NCBI GenBank assembly: GCA_003141195.1
Contig: PLLC01000054.1
Coordinates: 1-43,786 of the forward strand
Direction: 5' to 3'
DNA: 43,786 nucleotides
Origin: Syntrophaceae bacterium
GTDB taxonomy: Bacteria; Desulfobacterota; Syntrophia; Syntrophales; UBA5619
Below the pieces are notes generated by a model. That model made no database searches. It was not told the DNA's origin and was given only the letters and a program-made list of their open reading frames with translations. Shown here piece by piece: positions 10,308-43,786 of this stretch (position 1 is its first letter; each line of letters begins with the position of its first letter). The translations under genes and the position numbers were made by a program.

Positions 10308-10912
10308 TTACGCCCCGTGGATGCGGATGTTGTCATCTTTGACGATGAATCCTGAACGGGGTTTTTCCCCGCCGACGGATTCACGGAGTTCATTCAGCGA
10401 AGGATACCCGTTCTGCCCCAGGAAAAGCCTCGCATCATCGATCAGGATGACGTGATCCCGGAAAGGGTGATCGAAGATGTACTTTATCTCCTTCAGGATC
10501 GGCGTATCCGTATTTCCTCTGCCGGTTCCCTCCCCCGAGTAGTGTGCATCGAGCCGGAACAGTGCGGGTTCGTTTACCGTGTAGAGAATCTCCGACAAGC
10601 AGTTTCCACTGTCGCCGTGATGAAGGTGAATATGATCGATCCCGGAGAATTTCTCCAGCGCCTTCCGATAGAGCGGTTCAAAGATTTCGATGGAATGGAT
10701 GACGCGGAAGCGCTTTTGCATGGCCTCGACCATTTCCCCTTCATACGTCCCCGTTTCGATCAGGATCCTCAAGCGGTGTTTCCGTGCATATTTTCCACCC
10801 CCTGTTTCACATCGCCCGGAGGCGGCAGGGGCCTGCCTTTGAGGATCCAGATCCACTTGTTCCAGGTCTTATGGGGGAGATATCTCTTTTTGAATGTTTT
10901 GAGATTCATCAT
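10308..10912 (-). pseudogene. Methyltransferase-like gene with one frameshift
   Basis: The downstream frame (to 10308) holds most of a class I methyltransferase-like protein: LIETGTYEGEMVEAM as the SAM loop, IHSIEIFEPLYRKA, HHGDSG, LFRLDAHYSG and ILIDDARLF. It lacks a proper start. The upstream frame from ATG 10912 (or 10909) encodes MNLKTFKKRYLP and a PPPGDVKQGVE segment typical of the N-terminus of this family. The two join if one A is added to the A4 run that reads as T4 at 10791-10794 on the plus strand, giving VKQGVEKYARKH. Either a recent single-base deletion or a sequence error; apart from this the gene is intact, about 200 aa. It lies between the FkbM and DUF268 genes. Confidence 0.72.
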
Positions 10913-10941
10913 CTGTCAACGAGGTTTATTTCAGGAAACAG

Positions 10942-11730
10942 CTAAACGCGGTTGTCGATGGCCGCGAAATTGGTTGTTCGGTACTGTTCGTCGATCTCCC
11001 GGTAATCCGGAAGGGGATGAAGATAGCCCCCCGGGGTGATCCGGCAGATGTCCATGCCGTTTTCTTTGAAAAAGTAGAAGAAATCCTTGAAAAAGGTTCG
11101 CGTGTCGATGTTGCAGCCGCCGAATTCGAAGGTGGCCATTCCGACGGCCCGTTTTTCGATCATGTTTTGGGCGCCCAGCAGGAGATCCATCTCGTGTCCC
11201 TCGATATCGACTTTCAGCAGGTGGATATAATCCACGCCATGATCGGCGCAGTAGTTGTCGACGGTATCGATCTTAACCGTCTCCGAATTGGAAAAGGAGA
11301 TGCCTAAAGAATCCAATTGTCGGCGGCTTAAAGAGCCGCCCGATTCCTTCGAATCGAAGAACAGATCGAATTCGCCCTTCTCCCGTCCCAGACCGATATT
11401 GTTCAAGGTTACACGGGGATCATCCTTTGCCCTGTCGGAGAGGGCGCCGAAGACGCTCAACGACGGCTCGAAGCAGTGGATGTGAATATCTTCGCCCACC
11501 AGGGCGGATAAAACCAGTTTCAGATATTGACCCTTGTTGGAACCGACATCAAAGATGCAATAAGGGGGGGGCTTCAGCGTCTTCAGTTTATGCAGGACCC
11601 CTACTTCCCCACTTTCATACACGTTTTCACCGGAGCCGACGCCCATGTAGAGATGGGCCTTGCGGACAATGCGTTCCAGGAATCGCTGACCTCTTTTGTT
11701 GCCGTAAAGATGAATCAAGGTCTTGATCAT
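10942..11730 (-). CDS. FkbM-family SAM-dependent methyltransferase
   Basis: 262 aa. IFDVGSNKGQYLKL near residue 60 is the SAM-binding loop; FEPSLSVF follows as motif II and LLKVDIEGHEMDLLLGA near 170 is the FkbM signature. The family O-methylates sugars or polyketides, and beside glycosyltransferases it most likely methylates a glycan residue. It is the first gene of the minus-strand trio, divergent from the GT2 gene at 11873, so 11731-11872 should hold both promoters. The ribosome-binding site is weak (GGAGAG lies rather far from the ATG). Confidence 0.88.
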   Translation of the reverse strand: MIKTLIHLYGNKRGQRFLERIVRKAHLYMGVGSGENVYESGEVGVLHKLKTLKPPPYCIFDVGSNKGQYLKLVLSALVGEDIHIHCFEPSLSVFGALSDRAKDDPRVTLNNIGLGREKGEFDLFFDSKESGGSLSRRQLDSLGISFSNSETVKIDTVDNYCADHGVDYIHLLKVDIEGHEMDLLLGAQNMIEKRAVGMATFEFGGCNIDTRTFFKDFFYFFKENGMDICRITPGGYLHPLPDYREIDEQYRTTNFAAIDNRV

Positions 11731-41158: not shown

Positions 41159-41710
41159 CGCGGCTTGTCCCATCATTCCGGGCGGTACCGAACCGGGAAA
41201 TTGATGGAATACTGAGCTTTGAGAATCTCCATCAAGATTAGGCCCCCCTGGACGAGGCCATCCCTCGGGCTGTGAAAAACAAGAAAAAGCCAGCCTGAAA
41301 ATGATGGGAGCCGTCGCAATAGTAATTATTATATCGTATAGATATGTCGTATCAGCGCGTCGATATGACTTCGAGATGGGTGCGGTTCCGGTGGCCCGGC
41401 CGGTGGGTTCACGAAGAAGGAATTTATGGAATCGCTTCCTGAAGTCAAGCGTCCGGAAATTTTGACTGGCATACTTTCTTTCAAATGGCAATAGTTATCA
41501 TCACTCCATCTCTTGCGGTCGTTTTCTTTTGATACACAATCGCTATTTTCATATACTCGGCCCAAAAAAACCGACATTTTATCAAACAAATCTCAGATTT
41601 TAATCGCTAAACCGTAAAGTTGATCCAGTTTTCGGCAAGATATTTTTCATGACCTGTGCAAATCCTTTGCTGTAAAGTGATTGCTGGGATTATTTTTTAA
41701 TCCAACTTTT

Positions 41711-41729
41711 AAAATATGAGTCATATTTT
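41711..41729. promoter_or_regulatory. Perfect 9-bp-arm palindrome upstream of the nuclease fusion
   Basis: AAAATATGA-G-TCATATTTT ends 47 bases before the start at 41777. It could be an operator or a transposase-binding site. Confidence 0.5.
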
Positions 41730-41734
41730 TGGTT

Positions 41735-41747
41735 CCGGCTTTGCCGG
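41735..41747 (+). other. GC-rich hairpin in the leader of the nuclease fusion
   Basis: CCGGC-TTT-GCCGG lies about 30 bases before the start codon, in an AT-rich setting. It could damp translation or transcription of the element, a common device in insertion sequences. Confidence 0.45.
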
Positions 41748-41776
41748 GTTAGGACAATGGTAATTGGGAGACGACA

Positions 41777-43786
41777 ATGCCAATCCCGATATCTGATAGG
41801 TTATTCATCGATTACCTTCGGTGTAAGTACAAAGCATATCTCAAGGTCTCAGGGAAGAGCGGTGTTAAAAGCGACTTTGAGATATATCAAGATGATAAAA
41901 ACGCAGAATATCGCCAACGAGCAAGAGAGCATCTCTTAAGAGCTGAACGCAATACAAAATCATTTATTTTAACCGGTACATTCAAAGATGTTAAAAAGCA
42001 AAACCTTTCTATTGCCACCGCCATTTCGATTTCCAATGACAAAAACTCTCTTACCCTTGATGCAATAGAACTGGCTTTTCAATCGTCCCCTCGCAAACCA
42101 GCCTATCATCCGATTCTCTTTTTACCCCAGCGAAAGATCACCAGGCAGGACAAGCTCTTGCTGGCATTCTGCGGCTTGACCTTAAGCCACGAACAGAAGG
42201 TAGAGCCGACTTTCGGCAAAATCATTTTTGGAGATAATTTCTCTTCATCAAAGGTGCAGCTCGCATCTCTGATCAAGGTGGCAGGCAAAGTAGAAAAAGA
42301 GATAGGCAAGATGTTGGAAACACATACGGCACCGCCATTACGGCTAAATGATCATTGTAAAATGTGCGAGTTTCAAACAGGCTGTATGGCGGCAGCGAAG
42401 GACAAAGATGATCTCAGCTCTCTCAAAGGACTTAGTGGGAAAGAAATCGACGCCTTGAATAAAAGAGGAATTTTTACCGTTACACAATATTCGTTTACGT
42501 TCCGGCCGAGACGAGCCAAGAAACTGATGACGCAAAATATAGTCAAACATCATCATTCACTTAATGCCCTGGCGATTCGAACGCAAACAATTTATATCGC
42601 GGGTAAGCCAGAATTGCCCTCTGAAGCGATACGCGTTTATCTGGATGTTGAAGGGATACCAGACGAGAACTTCTATTATCTGATCGGTCTTCTCATCGAC
42701 GACGGAATAAAAGTGACCTCACATTCACTATGGGCAAATGACAAGTCCGAGGAAATATCAATCTGGAAATCATATCTTGAAATAATCGAACCAATTCAGG
42801 ATTTTCTGATGTTTCATTATGGAAGTTACGAGACTAAGTTCGTAAAACAGATGGGGTCGCAGTATGGCGGTAATACCGAATTGCTTGAAAAGATAAGATT
42901 GCGCTCCTTCAATGTGCTGTCCGCAATATATGGGCACATCTACTTCCCGACGTATTCCAATGATCTGAAAAGTATTGCATCATTTCTAGGGTTTAAGTGG
43001 TGCGAGCCAAATGCTTCCGGTCTCACGAGCGTTCTATGGAGAAAACGATGGGAAAGAAGCCATGATGAGGTATGGAAGAAAAATTTAATTGCATACAATA
43101 ATGATGATTGCGTAGCATTACGAGTTGTGGATGCAGGTCTTCGAAGCATTTCTGCGAATGATAACGCTGCAAATATTACTTACCCTGCGAAGTTCACTGA
43201 TGAGCTAAAAGCAGAAAAGCCACTCGGTATATTTAAACACAATCAGTTCTACTTACCTGAGCTTGAACAAATCAATAAACGATCATATTTCGACTATCAG
43301 AGATCTAAGGTATTTTTGAGAACGAGTTCGGAAGTAAAAAAAGCGATCACCAAAAATAATCGAAAGAAGCAAGGAGGTTATAAAACAAGCAAGGAGATTT
43401 CGTTCGACGTTCCAAAGCGTTGCCCATTGTGCAATGAGTTATCACCGGTTAAACATACGAAACGTTCAAGGATTGTATACGATCTGAAAATATTCAAACA
43501 TGGAATCAAGAGATGGGTAATTAAATATAAGAGTCCCAGGTGTCTCTGCAAAAAATGTAATAGAACCTTCTACCCTCCAGCGTATCAAAAAATATCATCG
43601 TCAAAATATGGACATAATCTTTTTGCCTGGGTCATATATCGGAATATTGGACAGCTATTATCAATGAATACCATTATTGAAGATTTGGGGGAAACTTTTG
43701 GTTATTGGTTTCCATCGCATATTGTTGTAGAGATGAAAACAATTGCTGCACGCTATTATCAGATGGTTATTCCGCTGAAATCGGCC
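41777..43786 (+). CDS. RecB-like nuclease / RNase H-like / ISL3-like zinc-ribbon fusion (3' incomplete)
   Basis: At least 670 codons with no stop before the window edge. (a) Residues 1-210: RecB/Cas4-like nuclease resembling the TM0106 family, with Cys16 and the C-terminal triad Cys194-x2-Cys197-x5-Cys203 for an Fe-S cluster; Asp95 and Gln118-x-Lys120 fit a PD-(D/E)XK site. (b) About 285-455: RNase H-like DEDD domain, with LDVEG (Asp290, Glu292), YYLIGLLIDDG, FHYGSYETKFV, LKSIASFLGF and AYNNDDC (Asp444). (c) About 540-600: zinc ribbon Cys549-x2-Cys552 ... Cys589-x-Cys591-x2-Cys594, followed by a FYPP segment as in ISL3-type transposases. (d) About 605-670: helical, where an HTH would precede a DDE domain lying beyond the edge. 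ATG chosen with GGGAG upstream. Much AT-richer than its neighbours, so probably acquired. Confidence 0.8.
   Translation, partial: MPIPISDRLFIDYLRCKYKAYLKVSGKSGVKSDFEIYQDDKNAEYRQRAREHLLRAERNTKSFILTGTFKDVKKQNLSIATAISISNDKNSLTLDAIELAFQSSPRKPAYHPILFLPQRKITRQDKLLLAFCGLTLSHEQKVEPTFGKIIFGDNFSSSKVQLASLIKVAGKVEKEIGKMLETHTAPPLRLNDHCKMCEFQTGCMAAAKDKDDLSSLKGLSGKEIDALNKRGIFTVTQYSFTFRPRRAKKLMTQNIVKHHHSLNALAIRTQTIYIAGKPELPSEAIRVYLDVEGIPDENFYYLIGLLIDDGIKVTSHSLWANDKSEEISIWKSYLEIIEPIQDFLMFHYGSYETKFVKQMGSQYGGNTELLEKIRLRSFNVLSAIYGHIYFPTYSNDLKSIASFLGFKWCEPNASGLTSVLWRKRWERSHDEVWKKNLIAYNNDDCVALRVVDAGLRSISANDNAANITYPAKFTDELKAEKPLGIFKHNQFYLPELEQINKRSYFDYQRSKVFLRTSSEVKKAITKNNRKKQGGYKTSKEISFDVPKRCPLCNELSPVKHTKRSRIVYDLKIFKHGIKRWVIKYKSPRCLCKKCNRTFYPPAYQKISSSKYGHNLFAWVIYRNIGQLLSMNTIIEDLGETFGYWFPSHIVVEMKTIAARYYQMVIPLKSA

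Follow-up and report, generated by a model that had tools for sequence, protein, structure and literature searches.

As a rule, DDE transposases carry out the processing of their ends themselves. Proteins of the TM0106/COG2251 family were described as a combination of a DUF83 domain with a predicted 3'-5' exonuclease domain, often accompanied by AAA domains (PMC3985635). The only paper found to name both COG2251 and transposase classes those families separately, and a literature search, with most subscription journals and all preprints outside its coverage, returned no description of a protein in which the two are fused. Such a combination, which the initial annotation of the locus treated here had not recognised as a described system, hence seems undescribed, and its novelty is provisional.

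The window, i.e. the whole stretch of DNA analysed, comprises the complete contig G000:C15 with 43,786 bp (1-43786). At its right edge a frame on the forward strand, starting with the ATG at 41777, is open for 670 codons up to the last base (43786) and runs off the contig end, just as had been read from the sequence initially. It constitutes the 5' three quarters of a truncated fusion gene (41777-43786, +; about 73% of about 915 codons), and the chances appear about even that the complete gene would encode a single-chain DNA-processing integrase of roughly 915 residues. In profile searches residues 6-451 of the window protein matched TIGR03491 (205.8 bits, cut-off 97.45, E 1.2e-60), in agreement with the TM0106/RecB-type nature claimed for the first part, and the four cysteines attributed to a cluster correspond to C16, C194, C197 and C203. 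They belong to a Cas4/RecB-fold FeS domain (41777-42400, +; residues 1-208; TIGR03491) with a degenerate PD-(D/E)xK active site, and Cas4 models remained below their cut-offs on the window protein (PF01930, 19.6 vs 22.7; TIGR00372, 13.6 vs 65). The second part (42635-43129, +; residues 287-451) was correctly anticipated as an RNase H-fold DEDD domain: it matched RNase_H_2 (PF13482, 2e-25) and resembles 3'-5' exonucleases, with D290, E292, E352 and D444 as the characteristic residues. The third part (43391-43741, +; residues 539-655) comprises a zinc ribbon (C549/C552...C591/C594) and the N-terminal portion of an IS66-type transposase. It had been taken for the ribbon of ISL3 transposases, but here the start of the IS66 model NF033517 (6e-7, under the curated cut-off) outscored the ISL3 model NF033550 (2e-5; 23.7 bits vs a cut-off of 180), while the further ISL3 model PF14690 reached E 0.31; as NF033550 stayed under its cut-off on the window protein and no match was obtained on full-length relatives, the ISL3 assignment was rejected. 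The contig stops just short of the first DDE aspartate, so that the DDE core falls past its end, and a search of the source assembly did not recover the remaining 3' part; from full-length relatives we infer that the window copy would carry a DDE domain as well. With a GC content of 40.6% and a GC3 of 41% the ORF departs from the contig (GC 59.7%) and from the neighbouring ilvD (GC3 87%), and, with its nearest relatives in Nitrospirota, the gene looks horizontally mobile and acquired, the latter as its base composition had already suggested.

When the single window protein was used as a query, a scan of GTDB contigs gave no match; an alignment-based query recovered 66 loci, of which 37 hold intact ORFs of more than 850 aa. 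Full-length relatives of 850-950 aa were found in about 40 independent genomes from about 12 phyla; archaea are among them, and some of the relatives lie on complete plasmids. The loci are distributed over Nitrospirota, Planctomycetota, Acidobacteriota, Bacteroidota, Pseudomonadota, Cyanobacteriota and Chloroflexota, with further ones in Myxococcota-like genomes, Thermodesulfobacteriota, Omnitrophota and two archaeal groups; a phage collection and viral contigs yielded no match to the fusion. The window protein is about 63-70% identical to Nitrospirota full-length proteins of 865-920 aa. One relative of 953 aa (L002/L046, Syntrophales) belongs to a genome of the window's own genus, another of 911 aa is located on a Calothrix plasmid and annotated as 'transposase IS66, putative', and a third of 906 aa on an Acaryochloris plasmid is annotated as 'TM0106 family RecB-like putative nuclease'; each of the three matches PF03050 and NF033517 as well as TIGR03491. 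Values for full-length relatives ranged from 8e-23 to 2e-36 for PF03050 and from 7e-43 to 2e-57 for NF033517, the gathering score of the former being passed in three relatives and the cut-off of the latter in two of those, and the DDE core is present in the full-length relatives P0002-P0004. Because full-length relatives in about 40 genomes end in an IS66 DDE domain, the fusion is no artefact: a Cas4-like domain, an exonuclease and an IS66-type transposase do form one protein, as had been proposed in outline, and matches to full-length homologues run over the whole protein, past the zinc ribbon and into the DDE domain. In a tree of front ends the window protein groups with five Nitrospirota proteins (100*), phyla are intermixed, and a branch separates the fusions from seven stand-alone TM0106 proteins of the order to which the window belongs; with only these few stand-alone proteins in the tree, the fusions may have had a single origin.

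Conservation of catalytic residues was surveyed in 48-61 aligned fusions, the number varying by position. The FeS cysteines were invariant (C16 in 48/48, C194 and C197 in 56/56 each, C203 in 58/58), as were the DEDD residues (D290 and E292 in 58/58 each, E or D at 352 and D444 in 61/61 each) and the DDE triad (55/55, 53/53 and 49/49), and the ribbon cysteines were mostly conserved in 58-61 fusions, with C or H at one position. Motif III of the PD-(D/E)xK site is gone, its region reading YxP[IT][IL][FV], and D95 is kept in about half of the fusions. Selection, according to this survey, preserves three features, namely the cluster cysteines, the DEDD residues and the DDE triad, and does not preserve the nuclease site of Cas4/RecB. 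Since the residues of the former three are invariant but the PD-(D/E)xK site was lost, one nuclease has to be assumed instead of two, and the front end is probably an FeS scaffold with one live exonuclease site; the two-nuclease front end of the initial annotation was thus abandoned, two live nucleases being ruled out by this survey. An AlphaFold model of the full-length relative L022 (pLDDT 85, pTM 0.68) retrieved with Foldseek the ISCth4 transposase (E 5e-8) and the Cas4 of Cas4-Cas1-Cas2 (E 1e-5, TMt 0.66), with Dna2 matched more weakly. Compared with viral models, its best matches were giant-virus proteins, one of them named RNase_H superfamily protein, and among PDB chains none was similar by sequence.

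On its left, the acquired unit must begin between 41756 and the ATG (41756-41776, +; 0-21 bp before the ATG), because the preceding sequence (41599-41755, +) is a host intergenic repeat that is found elsewhere without the gene (copies in G000:C84 with 95%, in G009:C9 and G014:C35 with 90% identity). A 127-bp own-genome repeat had been considered as the left end of the element and was discarded, being a host intergenic repeat that also occurs without the gene. The repeat at 41599-41755 is about 157 bp long and closes with a GC-rich, terminator-like hairpin, and more own-genome intergenic repeats are located at 41240-41391 (86% to C5:12640-12791) and 41419-41483 (82% to C58). Among the relatives, the sequence common to copies in unrelated contexts with 79-95% DNA identity begins 0-18 bp ahead of the ATG and extends to about the stop codon (groups L069/L071/L190/L080, L042/L072 and L033/L035), with identities of 88.8% for L069/L071, 95% for L033/L035 and 88% for L042/L072. 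A 3.65-kb unit in two unrelated places (L046/L077, 93%) takes in an upstream DUF433/DUF5615 pair, and the unit shared by Nitrospirota ends at the stop of a higBA pair downstream of the fusion. As L047/L087 and L046/L077 share flanks at similar identity, common flanks elsewhere would have been detected. These copies show the gene to spread between phyla as a single-copy unit nearly coincident with the ORF, sometimes together with a toxin-antitoxin pair.

Per subfamily the fusion was single-copy in 22 host genomes, and in a Paraglaciecola host stand-alone IS66 genes with more than 20 near-identical copies occur alongside a single-copy fusion. Three features expected of DDE elements were searched for, i.e. 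terminal inverted repeats (TIR), target duplications (TSD) and multiple identical copies, but neither TIR nor clean TSD nor such copies were found: ungapped and gapped TIR reached p<=0.05 in 3/36 and 2/34 copies, which is chance level, and no direct-repeat signal was detected around the copies. The possibility that cis-acting ends lie within the coding sequence was likewise rejected, synonymous conservation not being raised at either end, and a consistent flanking tRNA as attachment site was not observed, the one tRNA-Cys in L042 lying about 0.24 kb beyond the gene. Comparison of the plasmids L053 and L087 gave a candidate empty site with the 7-bp CCCACAC on both sides, where a host palindrome partly spans the junction and a deletion may equally be the cause. 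Downstream of the fusion gene in L053 a fragment (10908-11012) resembles the DDE part of L042 and L072 and may be what is left of an older, decayed copy.

Within the clade L022-L026 the relationships of the front end and of the recognition/transposase half (residues about 435-710) are discordant. L022 and L023 share 90.7% DNA identity in the front end and only 55.5% over residues 440-705, the corresponding values for L022 and L026 are 85.5% and 91.5%, and L025 is nearest to L026 in front (92.0%) and nearest to L024 behind (72.2%). Judged by these identities, the two halves are modules that have been recombined within one clade. Besides, a 73-bp block covering -13 to +60 of the gene (L055 7973-8045, L059 1379-1451) is about 97% identical in genes otherwise sharing about 65%, which suggests recombination at the 5' end.

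In four of the five close Nitrospirota copies the site of the fusion is the comM 3' end; L023 and L024 carry another such end past the higBA pair, and L026 has a 28-bp comM repeat. A site-specific element whose own fusion protein targets the comM 3' end and restores the gene looked plausible at first, but was then undercut by a control: in a related genome the comM site is occupied by a 7.4-kb two-component/MacAB efflux island and a comM remnant with no fusion gene, and in another related genome the site is empty. Because an island without the fusion occupies the same site, comM is to be regarded as a general island hotspot in this group, and as the remaining clades are not located at comM, targeting by the fusion protein is very improbable. 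Between the full comM and a diverged 94-153 bp remnant of its 3' end the group (L184, L188, L023, L024) carries varied cargo, either MacAB efflux with a two-component system or the fusion gene with higBA, and no recombinase gene was seen in these islands. At a cyanobacterial locus (L071, L078, G215:C7) what lies between the same flanks differs: two different fusion genes, oriented oppositely, or a toxin-antitoxin pair of HigB-like type; an empty site in relatives of L071 was considered and dismissed, the flanks being conserved and the contents swapped (toxin-antitoxin, other cargo). Toxin-antitoxin genes often accompany the fusion, their families recurring close to it and not farther off. In the neighbour sets, which include some mechanical ORFs that are not genes, the families recurrent in 150 proteins located no more than about 0.9 kb from the fusions were Gp49/HigB (6, partly from one lineage), PIN (4 and 2), DUF5615 (2), DUF433 (2) and nucleotidyltransferase (2), none of which was among the recurrent ones in 148 proteins at least 1.6 kb off. 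Neither cas families nor the IS66 accessory family (tnpA/tnpB) recurred (two or more) among the 150 neighbouring proteins.

With about as much confidence as doubt, the fusion is proposed to be an IS66-derived, TIR-less integrase that would shorten 3' ends of DNA ahead of strand transfer and would either mobilise itself or have been recruited as cargo in conflicts. While the order of the domains (Cas4-fold FeS, DEDD exonuclease, zinc ribbon/HTH, IS66-type DDE) and the conserved residues are observed directly, we infer the order of the reaction steps: the Cas4-like module, its nuclease lost, would grip a DNA end or a ss/ds junction, the DEDD domain would cut the 3' strand back until a defined 3'-OH is left, selection of the DNA would fall to the ribbon/HTH region, and the DDE domain would join the trimmed 3' end to the target, whereby the unit could move or integrate without classical TIR. 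Evidence against an integrase is given by the lack of TIR and clean TSD, by the ambiguity of the sole empty-site comparison, by the single copy, and by the comM and cyanobacterial sites, which take other cargo; besides, the window copy is missing its 3' quarter. Self-mobility is preferred over recruited cargo, and only slightly so, because comM is a general hotspot and the cyanobacterial site swaps its contents. A further-reaching version, a new enzyme class with Cas4-like end capture, DEDD 3' trimming and TIR-independent DDE integration, whose recognition half is swapped between lineages, is rather unlikely.

An assembly or annotation error fusing separate genes, to which the stop of the window ORF at the contig edge might point, has practically no chance and is refuted for the family by the identical architecture in about 40 genomes, complete plasmids among them. 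It is possible, if on balance doubtful, that a transposase was recruited or domesticated as an accessory nuclease-integrase, which would attack competing mobile DNA or help to maintain plasmids and would be moved by others as cargo at island and plasmid hotspots with toxin-antitoxin genes. The single copy and the lack of TIR and clean TSD are in line with this, as are the toxin-antitoxin pairs or efflux islands as other occupants of the hotspots, the location on plasmids in complete records, and tyrosine recombinase genes within 3.5 kb of the fusion in 14 loci. However, defence-system models revealed no strong neighbourhood around the fusions, frequent decay and cross-phylum exchange are equally typical of selfish elements, and several unit boundaries lie at the ORF itself, not at a larger island. 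An ordinary IS66 insertion sequence, whose transposase gained an N-terminal domain and which undergoes standard TIR-dependent transposition, would fit the relatives that pass the PF03050 and NF033517 thresholds; it is nevertheless improbable: TIR stayed at chance level in 36 and 34 copies, a clean TSD was not seen, tnpA/tnpB did not recur among the neighbours, the gene is single-copy and non-coding flanks are almost absent.

The putative TIR-less integrase resembles TM0106/COG2251 (TIGR03491; DUF83 + PF13482) in having the same two-domain front end with the cysteines of the FeS cluster and the residues of the DEDD site, and differs from it by a degenerate PD-(D/E)xK site and by a back end that is an IS66 transposase, not a helicase or nothing. 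With IS66 TnpC it has in common the DDE domain (PF03050/NF033517) with invariant D, D, E and a zinc ribbon ahead; unlike TnpC, it possesses a large nuclease front end, is single-copy and lacks TIR, a clean 8-bp TSD and recurrent tnpA/tnpB. Dna2/AddB-type nucleases, of which Dna2 was matched by Foldseek, share the FeS-cluster PD-(D/E)xK fold, but the fusion has no helicase and its nuclease site was lost. That a conserved Cas4-fold FeS domain and a live exonuclease site are fused to a transposase in many phyla, without the usual ends, suggests that the DNA end to be integrated is made or chosen differently, and the fusion may have an unusual mode of moving or integrating DNA. On paper, its division of labour into Cas4-fold end handling, 3' exonuclease and integrase is like that of Cas4-Cas1-Cas2 adaptation with DEDD/DnaQ trimming, and the fold match is to Cas4; the integrase of the fusion, however, is DDE and not Cas1, all parts reside in one polypeptide, and cas genes are absent from the recurrent neighbours. 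The resemblance is one of analogy only, and in its architecture the fusion would represent an independent counterpart of Cas4/exonuclease/Cas1 in CRISPR adaptation.
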